From Paenibacillus sonchi (GTDB lineage: Bacteria; Bacillota; Bacilli; Paenibacillales; Paenibacillaceae), in NCBI RefSeq assembly GCF_016772475.1, contig NZ_CP068595.1, positions 930,001 to 994,000 on the forward strand: a DNA stretch of 64,000 nucleotides, given 5' to 3'. Position 1 is the stretch's first letter, and each line of letters opens with the position of its first letter. The position numbers and the translations under genes were made by a program. Positions 11,848 to 40,377 of the stretch are shown piece after piece. Below the pieces are notes generated by a model that was not told the origin of the DNA, ran no database searches, and worked only from the letters and a program-made list of their open reading frames with translations.

Positions 11848-12684
11848 TCAGCCTTTCATCGCACCTGCAGTCAGGCCGTCAATCAGGAACCGCTGCAGAA
11901 ATATGAAGAGCAGTGTTACCGGGAGAGCAACCAGAACCGCGCCTGCTGCGAACAGGGTGAACTCGGTGGAATTGCTCTGATTCACCATGCGGAACAGGCC
12001 AACAGCAAGCGTCCTCTTCTCCTCTGTGCGCAGAATAAGGTCAGCGAATATAAAGTCCACAAAGCAGCCGTTAAAGATCATCAGACTGGCATAGGTGAGC
12101 ATTGGCTTCGACAGCGGCATCATGATGGAGAGGAACACTTTCATGTGGCTCGCCCCGTCTATCCGCGCGGCATCCTCCAGGCTTTTCGGGATGGTGTCAA
12201 AGAAGCCTTTGGCTACAAAAACGTTCGTAATTATTGAGCCGCTGCTATATACAAGCACAAGGGCCCAGTGGGAATTCAGCAGCCCCAGGGTGTTCAGCAG
12301 CACGTAAATGGCAATCATCGCCATGAACCCCGGGAACATTTGCAGTACCAAAAACGCCGTCAGCATGCTTTTTCTGCCCGCAAAACGATACCGGGATATA
12401 GCATAAGAGGCCAGCAGCAAAAGCGATGTGCCAATCAGTGTCGAGAGTGCTGCAACTTTGAGTGTGTTCAGGAACCACTGCAGATACTTGGTCTGCTCAA
12501 ACAATTCCTGGTAATGAACTAAGGTCATCCTGCGCGGAATCAAGGTGTCGCTGAACAGGCTGTTTCCCGTCTTGAACGAGGACATCACAATCCAAAAAGC
12601 GGGGAACAGGCTGATGCAGCTAAGCAGAATCAGCAAGGCATAGCTGCCAATCGTTTTTGCGGCTTCCTCCGGTTTCCGGTTCAT
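11848..12684 (-). CDS. mdxG: Maltodextrin ABC transporter permease MdxG
   Basis: This 278-residue inner-membrane permease has six predicted helices. The EAA loop reads SLEDAARIDGASHMKVFLSI, and the protein ends with the MalG-type RFLIDGLTAGAMKG. Its start codon overlaps the mdxF stop by four bases (ATGA), indicating translational coupling. It pairs with MdxF to form the translocation pore. No ATPase is encoded nearby, so the shared MsmX-type ATPase is presumably used, as in B. subtilis; that is an inference from the family. Confidence 0.9.
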   Translation of the reverse strand: MNRKPEEAAKTIGSYALLILLSCISLFPAFWIVMSSFKTGNSLFSDTLIPRRMTLVHYQELFEQTKYLQWFLNTLKVAALSTLIGTSLLLLASYAISRYRFAGRKSMLTAFLVLQMFPGFMAMIAIYVLLNTLGLLNSHWALVLVYSSGSIITNVFVAKGFFDTIPKSLEDAARIDGASHMKVFLSIMMPLSKPMLTYASLMIFNGCFVDFIFADLILRTEEKRTLAVGLFRMVNQSNSTEFTLFAAGAVLVALPVTLLFIFLQRFLIDGLTAGAMKG

Positions 12685-13988
12685 GTAATCATGTCCTCCT
12701 CTTTATAGGATCGTGTCCGGCGGTAGCTCCAGATGGAGAATGTGGCGACCAGCAGGAAGATGATAATTCCGATGACGGAAGCGAAGCTGTACTGCGATTG
12801 GTTCAGCGCCAATTTATACAGCCAGGTCACGAGCAGATCGGTATCGCCCGCATACTGATAATGGGGATTGACCGGCTCTCCGTTAGTCATAAGATAGATC
12901 ACGTTAAAGCTGTTGATATTGCCTGCGAATTGCATAATGAGAATGGGGGCGGTTGCAAAGAGCACCATGGGCAATGTAATCATCCGGAACTTATGCGCCG
13001 ATCCGGCACCATCTACTTCGGCTGCCTCATACAAGTCCCGCGGTATGGTCGTCAGCACCCCGAAGGCAAGGATCATCGTAACCGGAATGCCGATCCACAT
13101 GTTGGCCAGTATAACGGTGACTTTAGCCCAGAACGGGTCTGTCAGCCAAGGCAGGCCGTTCAGCCCAATCATCCCCAGATATTTATTGACCGGTCCGAAC
13201 TGGTTGTTGAACATGTTGCGCATCACGAGCAGCGAGATCATATTGGGAATGGCGAAAGGCACGATCAGCAGAGTCCGCCACAGCTTTTTGAAGCGGACAC
13301 GCGGCTGGTGAATGAGCACAGCGACAAGGACCCCTCCGATGTAAGTCGTTACCGTGGCAATCACCGCCCAGCACAAGGTCCATGTCAGAATACCGCCAAA
13401 AGTGGTGCTCCATACATCCAGACTCAGCATCTTCTTAAAGTTGCCGAAGCCGACCCAGTCCACCAGATTAGCCGGGGGCAGAATCGGGTCCGCATAGTTT
13501 GTAAACGCCAGGAGGACCGAGAATACAAGCGGCAGGATCGTCAGAAAAACTATAGCGGTTAAGGGGATGGCCAGCACCAGATAGGCAAAATGTCTGCGGC
13601 CCATATACTTAAGCGATTGGCCAAAGGACCGGATCTGCTCCTGTCTCGCCCGCGCAGCTCCAACCATGAAGGCATCTCTGATATTCAGCAGATAAAATCC
13701 GCAGTACAAGAACAGCGCAAGCAGGGCCATCAGGCCGTTAATCATCATAAAAATGGAGTGGTCGCCCTCTACCATCCGGGTCATCTTACCCACCTTGACC
13801 ATGCGGCTTGGCAGCTCGCCTAGTGTAATCAGTCCGCGCAGATGGCCGGTCAAACCATGGGTCATGAAATAGAACCAGGCCATACCTGTCACCAGGAACG
13901 CCAGCCCTTTCAACCACTGCCTATTGTACATCTGGCCCAGGCCCGGGATTACAGCCGAAAGCACCGCTGCGCCTGTTTTTTTTGGCAT
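12681..13988 (-). CDS. mdxF: Maltodextrin ABC transporter permease MdxF
   Basis: This 435-residue permease has the extended N-terminus (two extra helices and a long loop) typical of MalF/MdxF. The EAA loop is PRDLYEAAEVDGAGSAHKFR, and VTWLYKLALNQSQYSFASVI near the end is a MalF hallmark. The Shine-Dalgarno AGGTGG precedes the ATG by eight bases. It is the middle gene of the binding protein-MdxF-MdxG operon, separated from the binding-protein gene by 19 bp. Confidence 0.92.
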   Translation of the reverse strand: MPKKTGAAVLSAVIPGLGQMYNRQWLKGLAFLVTGMAWFYFMTHGLTGHLRGLITLGELPSRMVKVGKMTRMVEGDHSIFMMINGLMALLALFLYCGFYLLNIRDAFMVGAARARQEQIRSFGQSLKYMGRRHFAYLVLAIPLTAIVFLTILPLVFSVLLAFTNYADPILPPANLVDWVGFGNFKKMLSLDVWSTTFGGILTWTLCWAVIATVTTYIGGVLVAVLIHQPRVRFKKLWRTLLIVPFAIPNMISLLVMRNMFNNQFGPVNKYLGMIGLNGLPWLTDPFWAKVTVILANMWIGIPVTMILAFGVLTTIPRDLYEAAEVDGAGSAHKFRMITLPMVLFATAPILIMQFAGNINSFNVIYLMTNGEPVNPHYQYAGDTDLLVTWLYKLALNQSQYSFASVIGIIIFLLVATFSIWSYRRTRSYKEEDMIT

Positions 13989-14007: not shown

Positions 14008-15329
14008 TTATTTCGACTCCAGATCGGACTGAATCGTCTTAACCGTCTGATCCATAGTCTGCTTGACATCAAGACCCGGATCATTCCACAAGGACACAAA
14101 TGCGGCCTTCAAGGGTTCCCATACGGCGTTGATTTCTGATATGGCAGGCATTGGCACAGAGTGTTGGAACTGCTCAAAGAACCCGAGGGTAATGGGGTCA
14201 TTTTTGATTTCTTGTGATTCTCCGGCTTCAATGCTTGCAGGGATCGCTCCGGTCATTTTATAATTTTTAAGCTGATTGTCCTTGCTGCTGGCAAAATGTG
14301 CGAATAACCGGGCAGCAACGGGATAAGCGGTATAAGAGTTAACATAATAGGATTTGACGCCAGAAAAAGATATCATTTCCTCTCCGTCCGGTCCTTTTGG
14401 AAGCGGTACCACACCGAAGTTGACATGATCCTTGAACGACCCTGTGGACCACGGACCGTCAATGTTCATGGCAAGTTTCCCTTCCTGGAACAGCTGGGTT
14501 TTTACGTCAAAGGTGATATCTCCCGCATTCAGCGGCAGGATTTTTTTCAGGCTCTGGAGAAAGGTGAACCCTTTGATTGTTCCTTCATTATTCAAACCGA
14601 TATCCTGCGGATTGCTATTGCCGTCGCCGAAAATATAGCCGCCGAAGCTGCCGATAAACGGATACGTATAATACCCGACAAATTCCCACATGACTGCAAA
14701 TTTGTTTTCTTTCGGTTTGTTGTACGTATTGGCAAAAGCTATAATATCATCCCAGGTCTTGGGGGCCTCAGGAACCAGATCCTTATTATAAAACAGCGCA
14801 TAAGTCTCTACCGACTTGGGATAACCGTACAGAACCCCATCATAGGATGATGCCTGCACCGCTGTCTCCACCATGCTTGCTTTCGTTTCCTCCTCAAACA
14901 CATCATTGGGCAACAGCAGACCGGCTTTGACGGCCTGGCTGATCTGGTCATGCGGAAGGGTCAGCACATCGGCTGCAAGCTTGGATGGACCATCGGTAGC
15001 CAGCCGTCCCCCTGATCGCCGCCCGCCAATTCCTCAACGGTGACGGGGACACCGTATTTTTTTTCAAAATCGGCGGCAACCCCCTTCATATACTCAAGCT
15101 GCTCCTTGGCTTCCCAAACCATCAGCTTTGCTCCCTGTTCCGGCTCCATTTCCGGATCGGCGGTATTCTCTGGAGCAGAAGTTTCGGCGGTCTGGTTGTT
15201 CCCGCCCTTCGGGCTGGAGGCGGTCTTCGGGCTGTCTGAGCTGCAGGCTGTGGCCGTCATAACCAGAAGCATACATAGAACTACCATCAATGATACCGCA
15301 TTCATTTTGGAACGCTTAAATCTCTTCAT
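14008..15329 (-). CDS. mdxE: Maltodextrin-binding lipoprotein MdxE-like (one frameshift)
   Basis: The reconstructed product has 440 residues. It starts at 15329 (MKRFKRSKMNAVSLMVV) with GGGGAG upstream. A signal peptide ends in a lipobox-like Ala-Thr-Ala-Cys, followed by a Ser/Thr/Asn-rich linker, and then a family 1 solute-binding fold that includes GAKLMVWEAKEQLEYMKGVA. The frame breaks at the CCCCC run 15008-15012; one extra base restores Gly-Gly-Asp-Gln-Gly-Gly-Arg-Leu-Ala-Thr-Asp and leads into DVLTLPHDQISQAV. The protein should bind maltodextrins outside the membrane for MdxF/MdxG. Its expression is probably governed by the attenuator-like leader and the cre-like site upstream. Confidence 0.85.
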
Positions 15330-15393
15330 GTACTCATCTCCCCTGTGATTACTCATTGAACAAACCTGTCTCTCATACAAAATTCAGGCAAAT

Positions 15394-15463
15394 AAAAAAG
15401 GCACAACCCCTTTTGCACAAAGTGCCGAGGTTGTACCCTTACAGGTAACATTGCCTTTAATTT
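15394..15463 (-). promoter_or_regulatory. Attenuator-like leader A of the mdx operon (terminator/antiterminator candidate)
   Basis: Reading the minus strand, the conserved box AAATTAAAGGCAATG (15463-15449) is followed by TGTTACC (15450-15444), GGGTACA (15438-15432) and then a terminator. The terminator is GGTACAACC pairing with GGTTGTGCC (15408-15400), followed by a T run. The GGGTACA segment can pair either with the upstream TGTTACC or with the downstream terminator arm. The element matches leader B on the other side of the intergenic region. Regulation by conditional termination is inferred. Confidence 0.6.
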
Positions 15464-15500
15464 AGTGTATTAATGAATTTCCAAGTTTGTTTGCCATCAT

Positions 15501-15537
15501 TTTATAATAACCGGAAATTCGAATGCAAGCGCTTTAT
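15501..15537 (-). promoter_or_regulatory. SigA promoter and cre-like site of the mdx operon
   Basis: On the minus strand -35 TTGCAT (15528-15523) and -10 TATAAA (15506-15501) are 16 nt apart. The cre-like TGCAAGCGCTTTAT (15524-15537, plus strand) overlaps the -35, the position expected for CcpA repression. One position deviates from the cre consensus. Confidence 0.55.
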
Positions 15538-15650
15538 TTTAAAAAACCCTCCGTTTTCCCAAGCTTTCCGTATTGTTTTCTTCTGATTTTGGCCATTATC
15601 TAAGTATATCTCCATTTTTCTACCCTCCCGGCTTAATAAAAATAAGACGC

Positions 15651-15680
15651 TTGCCATAACCGGAAAACATGTGTTATGAT
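15651..15680 (+). promoter_or_regulatory. Promoter of the GH13 amylase gene
   Basis: TTGCCA (15651-15656) and TATGAT (15675-15680) are separated by 18 nt and lie just before leader B. Initiation would fall close to 15687, so the transcript would begin at or just before the conserved box. Confidence 0.55.
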
Positions 15681-15687
15681 GCAGGAA

Positions 15688-15750
15688 AATTTAAAGGCAA
15701 TGAAACCGAAAGGGTTCAACCTCCACAATTGTGAGGTTGAACCTTTTTTT
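15688..15750 (+). promoter_or_regulatory. Attenuator-like leader B of the GH13 amylase gene
   Basis: The conserved box AATTTAAAGGCAATG (15688-15702) is followed by TGAAACC-GAAA-GGGTTCA (15701-15718), a potential hairpin with a GAAA loop. GGTTCAACCTC (15713-15723) then pairs perfectly with GAGGTTGAACC (15733-15743) and is followed by seven T residues, a clear intrinsic terminator in the 5' untranslated region. It parallels leader A with compensatory changes. Confidence 0.65.
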
Positions 15751-15781
15751 ACGTTTGCTGCCGCGAAGGGATGATGTGGGT

Positions 15782-17532
15782 ATGATTCACCTGGAAAGCG
15801 TTTATCACCGGATGGGCCAGAACTGGTCCTATGCCTACGATGAAACTGTAATCCATATTCGCCTCCGGACGAAACGGGACGATGTATCACGGGTAGTTTT
15901 GATTTGCGGGGACAAATACGGCTGGGACAGAACCCATTCCGAATATGCGATGGAACATCTGTCCAGCGATAATTTGTTCGATTACTGGCAGGCTGCCGTT
16001 CGGCCGCCTCACCGCCGGCTGGCCTATTATTTTGCGCTGCACCAAGACGGAAATACAGTATATTTTCTGGAAAAGGGGTTTCTGGAACATCCTCCTGAAA
16101 TTATCTATGAAGGCTTATTTGACTTTCCAATACTGAGTCCTGAAGATGTGCACCGGCCGCCCGCTTGGGTGAAGGATGCTGTTTTTTATCAGATATTCCC
16201 GGAACGTTTCGCGAACGGGGACCCTTCCAATGATCCCGAAGGCGTACTTGAATGGGGGGCACACCGAGCCCGACGAATTTTTTTGGCGGAGACCTGCAAG
16301 GCGTGCTGGAGCATTTGGATTATTTGTGCGAACTTGGCATTAACGCCATATATTTTAACCCGCTCTTCGCGGCAACCACCAACCACAAATACGACACCGC
16401 AGATTATTTAAGAATAGACCCCCATTTCGGGACAAATGAACTGCTGAAAGAACTTGTGGATGCTTGCCATGCGAAGGGAATCCGTGTGCTGCTGGACGGC
16501 GTATTTAACCATTGCGGCCATACCTTCCCCCCGTTTATGGATGTGCTGGAGAACGGGCGTGCTTCGCGTTATGCTGACTGGTTTCATGTGAAAGAGTGGC
16601 CTCCCGGCGTAAACGGAGGAATCCCCACCTATGATACCTTCGCCTTTGAGCCGATTATGCCTAAATTTAACACAGCGAATCCGGAAGTCAGGGAATATCT
16701 GCTGAAGGTCGGCCGCTACTGGATTCAGGAAATCGGTGTAGACGGATGGCGCCTGGATGTCGCCAATGAGGTTTCCCATCAATTCTGGCGTGATTTCCGC
16801 ACTATGGTTAAACAGATCAATCCCGATGCTTATCTCGTTGGAGAAATCATGCATGATTCCTTGCCATGGCTGCTCGGAGACCAGTTCGACGCCGTAATGA
16901 ATTATCAGCTGACGAACATGCTGCTGAACTTTTTTGCCCGTGGGCAGACCGGTGCCGGGCAGTTCTCGCGGTCGGTCGGAACTTTACTGGCCAATTATCC
17001 GCAGCAGATTACGGAAGTCTCCTTTAATTTGCTGGACAGCCACGATACCGTACGTTTCCTGACCCTGTGCGGCGGGGATATCCGGCGTCTGAAACTGGCC
17101 TTTCTGTTCCTGATGACCTATCAGGGCACGCCTTGTATTTATTACGGAGATGAAATCGGCATGGATGGGGAGTATGATCCACACAACCGGAAATGCATGG
17201 AATGGGACCCCCGGAAACAGAATCAGGACCTTCTGGAGTATTACCGCTGGGCCATCCGGCTGCGTAAATCGAACTCCGCATTCCGCGGCAGTGCGATTAA
17301 GTTTCTTGAACACCCGGAGCACCCGGAGCTGCTTGTTTATGAACGGTGGGATGAGCACGACCGTTTCCTGGTAATCATGAATAACTCCGAACTTCCCATA
17401 GACGCCCACATTTCAGCGCTTAAATTAGAAAGCACCTGGATCAATCTGGAGCTCCAGCAGCCGGCAGACATCTGGGAACGGGGACAGCTCCAGCTGCCCG
17501 CCTACGGATATATGATTCTCCGCGAGACTTAA
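15782..17532 (+). CDS. GH13 neopullulanase/cyclomaltodextrinase-type amylase (one frameshift)
   Basis: The reconstructed product has 583 residues, the usual length of the GH13_20 group, with an N-terminal CBM34-like domain ([20 protein letters not shown]). Conserved regions are present in order: [28 protein letters not shown] (nucleophile Asp), EIMHD (acid/base Glu) and LLDSHDT. There is no signal peptide, so it should act in the cytoplasm on imported maltodextrins or cyclodextrins. The frame breaks in the G6 run 16254-16259; a seventh G restores [16 protein letters not shown]. It is divergent from the mdx transport operon. Confidence 0.88.
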
Positions 17533-40139: not shown

Positions 40140-40377
40140 CATCATACCTAAGATGAGGTAGAGGTTGCGGATATAAAGAGTACGCGCGTGGAGACGCTAT
40201 AAGAGCCGTCTGTGAAACGCCGCCGAAAGGAATATCCGCCGAAGTCTGCGCCGCTGCTCTTATTATGCTGCGCCGGCTGGGGCCGTTGCCGAAAGGTACG
40301 GAACTGTCACAGGGCATGGCCCGTCAGGAAACTGCGGCCAGGCACTGTGTTGCGCTATCTGAACAGGGAGTATGGTG
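40140..40377 (+). promoter_or_regulatory. Lysine riboswitch (L box)
   Basis: The aptamer core is recognisable from AGATGAGGTAGAGGTTGCGG, AAAGAGTA, two GCCGAA loops, CTGGGG and GGAACTGTCACAGG, in the order found in L boxes. P1 is closed by CATCATAC (40140-40147) with GTATGGTG (40370-40377). It is followed by an intrinsic terminator and then a lysine-type permease. Lysine binding would favour termination and reduce uptake. Confidence 0.92.

Follow-up and report, generated by a model that had tools for sequence, protein, structure and literature searches.

Two short RNA leaders that face outward between an MdxE-type gene and a neopullulanase-type GH13 gene of Paenibacillus sonchi are probably transcription attenuators, each off by default and each with an antiterminator that the availability of alpha-glucans would stabilise. 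The proposal draws on two competing folds, their conservation, a compensation that runs through three strands and the set of target genes, all read from sequence. Because the targets are catabolic, we infer that termination is the default, that maltodextrins induce and that a trigger holds the antiterminator under alpha-glucans. Starch use in Bacillus has been described via DNA-binding regulators. To the control of starch use in bacteria the leaders would add a family of regulatory RNA that seems to be undescribed and that 140 of the 296 genomes sampled from the order carry. Competition between an antiterminator and a terminator is a known class of mechanism; the RNA family, its regulon and the missing regulator appear to be new.

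Two divergent leaders share one build

The window (the whole stretch of DNA analysed, 64,000 nt) carries both leaders (Table 1), and the sequence-only reading, which had described paired divergent leaders of the same arrangement, was right about their presence and place. Each leader combines the box AAAGGCAATG with a small bulged hairpin, the 3′ strand of which serves again in a terminator. With up to two mismatches allowed, TTAAAGGCAATGNNACC occurs just twice in the window, both times with 0 mismatches; 4 of 100 dinucleotide shuffles give at least two such matches. The box of leader B begins 12 nt downstream of a promoter-like site. The candidate promoter of leader A is absent from the list of the promoter scan, and a consensus terminator scan of the window listed neither leader terminator, its loop limit being 3 to 8 bases and these loops being longer. 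No match to the CcpA cre consensus (up to one mismatch) falls within 15394-15750; the window as a whole has 22 such matches against 15.4 expected.

Table 1. Leaders, their parts and the genes beside them (window coordinates; C1, contig of the same genome)
Feature	Position	Strand	Detail and basis
Leader A	15460-15394	-	sequence reading
A, possible promoter	15501..15528	-	TTGCAT, 16 nt, TATAAA; by eye
A, box AAAGGCAATG	15458-15449	-	sequence
A, antiterminator/sensor hairpin	15427..15458	-	folding, alignment
A, antiterminator pairs	15456-15454/15430-15428; 15450-15449/15433-15432	-	AGG/CCT; TG/CA
A, antiterminator bulge and inner helix	15448; 15447-15444/15437-15434	-	bulge T; TACC/GGTA, loop between
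A, middle segment/terminator 5′ arm GGGTACAACC	15438-15429	-	
A, intrinsic terminator	15394..15438	-	folding, alignment
A, terminator 3′ arm GGTTGTGCC	15408-15400	-	
A, T tract	15399-15394	-	
MdxE/MalE-type substrate-binding protein gene	14008..15329	-	under leader A; start read by eye at ATG 15329
MalF/MdxF-type permease	12681..13988	-	downstream in leader A operon
MalG/MdxG-type permease	11848..12684	-	downstream in leader A operon
Leader B	15691-15750	+	sequence reading
B, promoter-like site	15651..15680	+	TTGCCA, 18 nt, TATGAT preceded by TG; consensus match only
B, box AAAGGCAATG	15693-15702	+	sequence
B, antiterminator/sensor hairpin	15693..15723	+	sequence, folding, alignment
B, antiterminator pairs	15695-15697/15720-15722; 15701-15702/15717-15718	+	AGG/CCT; TG/CA
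B, antiterminator bulge and inner helix	15703; 15704-15707/15713-15716	+	bulge A; AACC/GGTT, loop between
B, conserved C residues	15698; 15723	+	unpaired; flank
B, middle segment GGGTTCAACC	15712-15721	+	sequence
B, intrinsic terminator	15712..15750	+	sequence, folding, alignment
B, terminator 5′ arm GGGTTCAACCTC	15712-15723	+	equals 3′ strand of antiterminator
B, terminator 3′ arm GAGGTTGAACC	15733-15743	+	
B, T tract	15744-15750	+	
Neopullulanase/cyclomaltodextrinase-type GH13 gene	15782..17532	+	under leader B; relatives place the start at ATG 15782
Third copy, own genome	C1:4338484		before second neopullulanase-type gene
Fourth copy, own genome	C1:7168568		before nucleotidyltransferase gene

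Both full leaders fold into the terminator form, A at -24.8 kcal/mol (z -3.1) and B at -24.4 kcal/mol (z -5.4). Without the 3′ arm of the terminator, they adopt the fold proposed for the antiterminator (about -7 kcal/mol); taken alone, this short fold is no better than those of shuffled sequences (z -1.1 for B, -0.3 for A). The 5′ part takes the form AGG-CAA-UG-N-NACC-loop-GGNNCA-A-CCU. In leader A the short segment pairs with the middle one as TG[T]TACC/GGTACA; the helix of leader B is TG[A]AACC/GGTTCA. The earlier claim that the middle segment can pair with either neighbour stands for both folds, but its helix detail had to be redrawn as six pairs with one bulged base.

These folds suggest how the leaders would work. 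RNA polymerase would start shortly upstream of the box, and the first ~45 nt would fold into the small bulged hairpin AGG-CNN-UG-N-NACC / GGNNCA-N-CCUCG, acting as both sensor and antiterminator. Once the 3′ arm is made, the far more stable terminator (about -24 versus -6 to -7 kcal/mol) would capture the 3′ strand of the hairpin and stop transcription, the default off state. If alpha-glucans or a product of them are present, the trigger would bind and stabilise the hairpin, the terminator would be blocked and the operon would be read.

The leaders belong to a family centred on Paenibacillus

Of 118 genomes of the family, 25 contain the pattern AAAGGCAATGN{4,16}GGGTNCAACC and 0 its reversed control. 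In a species-level genome collection, the same pattern gave 110 stretches, 84 of them from Bacillota. A complementary arm and a T tract stand behind the match in 82 of the 84 Bacillota stretches versus just 2 of the remaining 26, whose phyla are different or unnamed, so these 26 look like chance matches. All 110 stretches were counted in this comparison; a broader motif, used below, requires a T after CAACC, which excludes most chance matches beforehand. By family, the 84 terminator-bearing stretches come from Paenibacillaceae (69), Bacillaceae (9), Caryophanaceae (3) and Fictibacillaceae (1), with 2 from outside Bacillota.

We aligned 81 of 82 copies (alignment A1; L026 was left out as a near copy of L024) and built a covariance model from them. 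The model finds the element in 79 of 116 genomes of the family (E<=0.01), 140 of 296 of the order (E<=1e-4), 37 of 398 of the class (E<=1e-5; eight of the 37 outside the order) and 6 of 398 of the phylum (E<=1e-6; all six in the same family as the window), these draws of genomes overlapping. By these matches, the leader family is found mainly in Paenibacillus and its relatives. A covariance-model search in Paenibacillaceae had been proposed with the sequence-only reading, and many relatives indeed have conserved instances upstream of maltodextrin genes. The comparison with Rfam proposed alongside returned no family that covers the leaders: a gathering search of the window with Rfam 15 had no match over either one, and a search of eight loci at E<=5 had two weak matches, neither over a leader. 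The sole gathering match of the window is a lysine riboswitch (RF00168) at 40151-40365 (+), 85.4 bits. Searches of an open paper library on antitermination, attenuation, terminators and riboswitches listed no relevant paper, and no description of the element turned up in that library. Among the matches listed for the literal box AAAGGCAATG in the literature, all are unrelated by title, and excerpts of a review of alpha-glucans (PMC11046441) do not mention riboswitch, antiterminat or Paenibacillus.

The genome of the window holds four copies, leaders A and B and the two others in Table 1. The divergent arrangement is conserved too. Back-to-back pairs of leaders, 192 to 258 nt apart, come from 13 sources, 11 of them distinct (L054 and L060 repeat loci L021 and L022); in 9 of the 11, GH13 is on one side and MdxE on the other. 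At the other extreme, the element is a single copy (E<=0.01) in 7 of 11 genomes, mostly from Bacillaceae and Planococcaceae, to which named loci had led. Six of these single copies stand before the nucleotidyltransferase and one before GH13. Such distant, solitary leaders fit either an RNA that acts by itself or a factor that Bacilli share.

Both folds and a three-strand compensation are conserved

The covariance model gave 121 matches. The last 7, which matched the near-palindromic terminator in antisense or in part, were removed; the other 114 make up 106 distinct rows, and 104 of these could be used for folding. Over these 104 copies, the terminator averages -24.4 kcal/mol versus -6.3 for the antiterminator. 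As isolated sensors, 92 of the 104 form at least two of four antiterminator marker pairs; with the 5′ strand and loop shuffled, a mean of 0.75 of 104 did so (maximum 3 in 20 rounds). Within the pattern-selected set, bases pair in 98.1% of cells of the terminator and 98.8% of cells of the antiterminator, counts above all 500 shuffles and slid registers, with just one pair changed on both sides in each structure.

Leaders A and B differ at one base in all three strands together (TGT/ACA/TGT and TGA/TCA/TGA), and the sequence-only reading took this as a sign of mutually exclusive structures. The compensation recurs in relatives. At positions 20 (antiterminator 5′ strand), 38 (shared strand) and 76 (terminator far arm), 55 of the 106 distinct copies have A/T/R and 45 have T/A/T; six fit neither, partly explained by a shifted bulge. 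A motif-based set of 143 instances divides into 95 A/T/R, 43 T/A/T and 5 others. Elsewhere among the 106, 2 copies have T/A/T in place of C/G/C at positions 23/35/79, 1 has changed to G/C/G at 21/37/77, and 3 have T-A instead of A-T at the terminator pair 41/73. Many changes on both sides are seen at just one antiterminator pair, the other compensations resting on one to three sequences each. On a tree of the GH13 proteins (n=49), the type switches at least two times on supported branches, and only two switches are forced by the tree. The conserved instances and the recurring compensation argue for the mutually exclusive antiterminator and terminator that had been suggested. The GGTACA type accounts for all 14 leaders assigned to MdxE, and the GGTTCA type for all 57 assigned to the nucleotidyltransferase; the pair type therefore follows gene lineage.

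A terminator shares a strand with the hairpin in 143 of 150 distinct instances of the broader motif. Columns of A1 that the search pattern fixes were excluded from the counts of conserved positions. C45 is kept in 142 of the 143 instances, although it has no terminator partner in 57 of them, G46 in 131 of 143 and A4 in 76 of 81 aligned copies. All three lie outside the search pattern and yet are conserved, so conservation extends past the hairpin and exceeds what the terminator needs.

Starch genes and a nucleotidyltransferase lie under the leaders

Downstream of the 143 terminator-bearing copies we found the nucleotidyltransferase 57 times, neopullulanase-type GH13 54 times and the MdxE-type binding protein 14 times. 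Rarer were a CBM48-type GH13 enzyme (4), AraC-type (2), beta-amylase (1) and MATE (1). Each assignment takes the best match within 1.2 kb to one of ten chosen seed proteins, and families outside the seeds could not appear; the 10 copies without a seed match include some at a contig or locus end and others, L091, L135, L204 and more, that are not. The label neopullulanase-type, or GH13_20, was given because the domains Alpha-amylase_N, Alpha-amylase and Malt_amylase_C follow one another in that order. To judge by these genes, the common theme of the targets is the use of starch and maltodextrin, with the nucleotidyltransferase as a large exception. One RNA signal would thus link starch genes with an antibiotic-resistance-like enzyme. 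We know of no link of this nucleotidyltransferase to starch and of no known function that predicts such a connection.

The target nucleotidyltransferase (~258 aa) keeps a motif of the GxGS...DxD active-site type. Its similarity to lincosamide nucleotidyltransferases is weak (Lnu(F) profile, E 3.8e-6; PDB 3jyy, E 7e-4), and unlike Lnu enzymes it scores far under the curated cut-offs, and also under the Pfam NTP_transf_2 cut-off. In 20 of the 22 genomes that have the gene, a leader lies no more than ~75 nt upstream. G094 has only fragments of the gene, without a leader, and in G097 the leader is 1.8 kb upstream (contig C4:15136-17030). In L264 (G615), a 438-aa ORF, transposase-like by eye, separates leader and gene; the gap in G097 perhaps has a similar reason. 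The nucleotidyltransferases of L055, L058, L067 and L117 share 63 to 80% identity with that of Paenibacillus, as though the gene had travelled together with its leader. Its neighbours differ among 12 loci, as they would for a stand-alone gene.

These features raise the question of whether the nucleotidyltransferase is itself an RNA-binding regulator that controls its own synthesis through its leader. It is the commonest target, the leader stands close upstream, and the differing neighbours suit a gene that works alone. However, we consider this very improbable, given that a copy of the gene (E<=1e-10) is missing from 57 of the 79 genomes with a leader, including G013, G053, G002 and G004, whose leaders are strong. 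That absence rules the protein out as a general regulator.

MATE exporter genes lie directly under a leader in L185 (by Pfam) and L270 (by eye), and beside a leader-nucleotidyltransferase unit in L149 (11381-12742) and L055 (3118-4536), both by eye, which may point to a branch of the regulon that serves detoxification. Further single loci add, by eye, another MATE gene and a putative esterase. Putative esterase genes are near or under leaders in L193 (by Pfam), L196, L269 and L186 (by eye).

What may trigger antitermination

The two short leaders make a clean test system for finding the trigger. We clustered 718 ORFs from 81 loci, and no regulator stood out near the leaders; there were only targets, transporters, enzymes and general DNA-binding regulators. 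By eye, a response regulator occurs at 8 of the 81 loci, a LacI-type regulator at 7, and TetR-, MarR- and LysR-like ones at 3 to 4 each. Three known antiterminator families fared no better in 19 chosen carrier genomes: CAT_RBD (PF03123) is absent from 8, ANTAR (PF03861) from 9 and GlpP (G3P_antiterm, PF04309) from 8, which rules out each as the general regulator. GlpP and ANTAR systems resemble the leaders in relying on leader hairpins, there for protein-dependent antitermination, and differ in that some of these carriers do without such proteins. One carrier, G126, has none of the three, the completeness of genomes reached via loci not being given.

We lean toward a trigger that is an RNA-binding factor widespread in Bacilli and outside these three families, and give it about an even chance, ahead of direct sensing of a metabolite by the RNA, which is our tentative second choice. 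In the latter case, the ~40-nt sensor would be a riboswitch that binds a small molecule without a protein. This is possible but rather doubtful, as are its candidate ligands, namely, maltose, maltodextrin, a glucose phosphate or an amino-sugar alpha-glucosidase inhibitor. The single copies in 7 of 11 distant genomes reached from loci speak for it, as do the dispensability of CAT, ANTAR and GlpP (all three in G126) and the conservation of C14, A41, C45, G46 and A4, which are unpaired or often unpaired. Conserved sensor positions on a strand shared with the terminator amount to a sensor domain coupled to an expression platform, as in riboswitches. Riboswitch-type attenuators also have mutually exclusive folds, a self-contained leader and a sporadic spread together with the controlled gene; the leaders differ in having no known ligand, a sensor of only ~40 nt and no match in Rfam. 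That sensor is very short and its hairpin loop variable, while the strict identity of most helix pairs suits a protein as well, and the search for a protein covered three families, so another common one is possible. We know of no riboswitch for a neutral sugar.

In its boldest form, which we regard as unlikely, a self-sufficient ~40-nt riboswitch would be the first for an alpha-glucan-like sugar, and its ligand would be an acarbose-like amino-pseudo-oligosaccharide that inhibits alpha-glucosidase. If true, such a ligand would unite the importer, the neopullulanase/maltogenic-amylase-type enzymes, the drug-modifying-type nucleotidyltransferase and the MATE exporter in one regulon. According to excerpts of one report, a Geobacillus maltogenic amylase hydrolyses acarbose (PMC3777949).

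Canonical antitermination by a PRD protein at a RAT sequence, as with BglG, LicT and SacY, has a much smaller chance than either the widespread factor or the riboswitch. These systems too place a short hairpin with an internal loop and a bulge in the 5′ leader of carbohydrate genes, where it excludes a terminator, and they serve several unlinked targets. By sequence and folding, the hairpin here likewise shares a strand with an intrinsic terminator and excludes it, its size of ~30 nt is similar, and the genome of the window (G000) has three CAT_RBD genes. All three lie outside the window, so the earlier statement that the window has no BglG-type gene holds. In a wider draw, 77 of 116 genomes have CAT_RBD. 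However, by its box and alignment the family appears to differ from the RAT consensus in sequence and loop arrangement, and its targets include an ABC importer rather than a PTS, amylase-type genes and a nucleotidyltransferase. It also does not require CAT_RBD, leader-rich genomes without it being G035 (six model matches), G003 (four) and G009 (three). Because 8 of the 19 carriers lack that domain, the element is, on sequence grounds, not an ordinary BglG/LicT RAT.

It is equally improbable that the element serves a repressor as its DNA operator, with the terminator incidental. The sequence behind an RNA hairpin forms an inverted repeat at the DNA level too, and LacI-type genes lie near some loci, as noted above. 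But the spacing of the half-sites varies, the loop running from about 3 to more than 20 nt across copies, one strand is common to the terminator in nearly all motif instances, and the compensation reaches the far arm of the terminator. Leader-peptide attenuation is ruled out by the ATG of the box, which is not always kept: it is CTG in 6 of 41 model-found copies, with two further exceptions at its T.

Reading frames of the controlled genes

Three of the four leader-controlled genes in the genome of the window seem to have broken reading frames: MdxE (window 14008-15380), GH13 (window 15731-17532) and the nucleotidyltransferase (C1:7167771-7168541). The MdxE-type gene under leader A appears split into ORFs 14961-15380 and 14008-14967, and the GH13 gene under leader B into ORFs 15731-16411 and 16252-17532. 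These breaks look more like assembly errors than decay.
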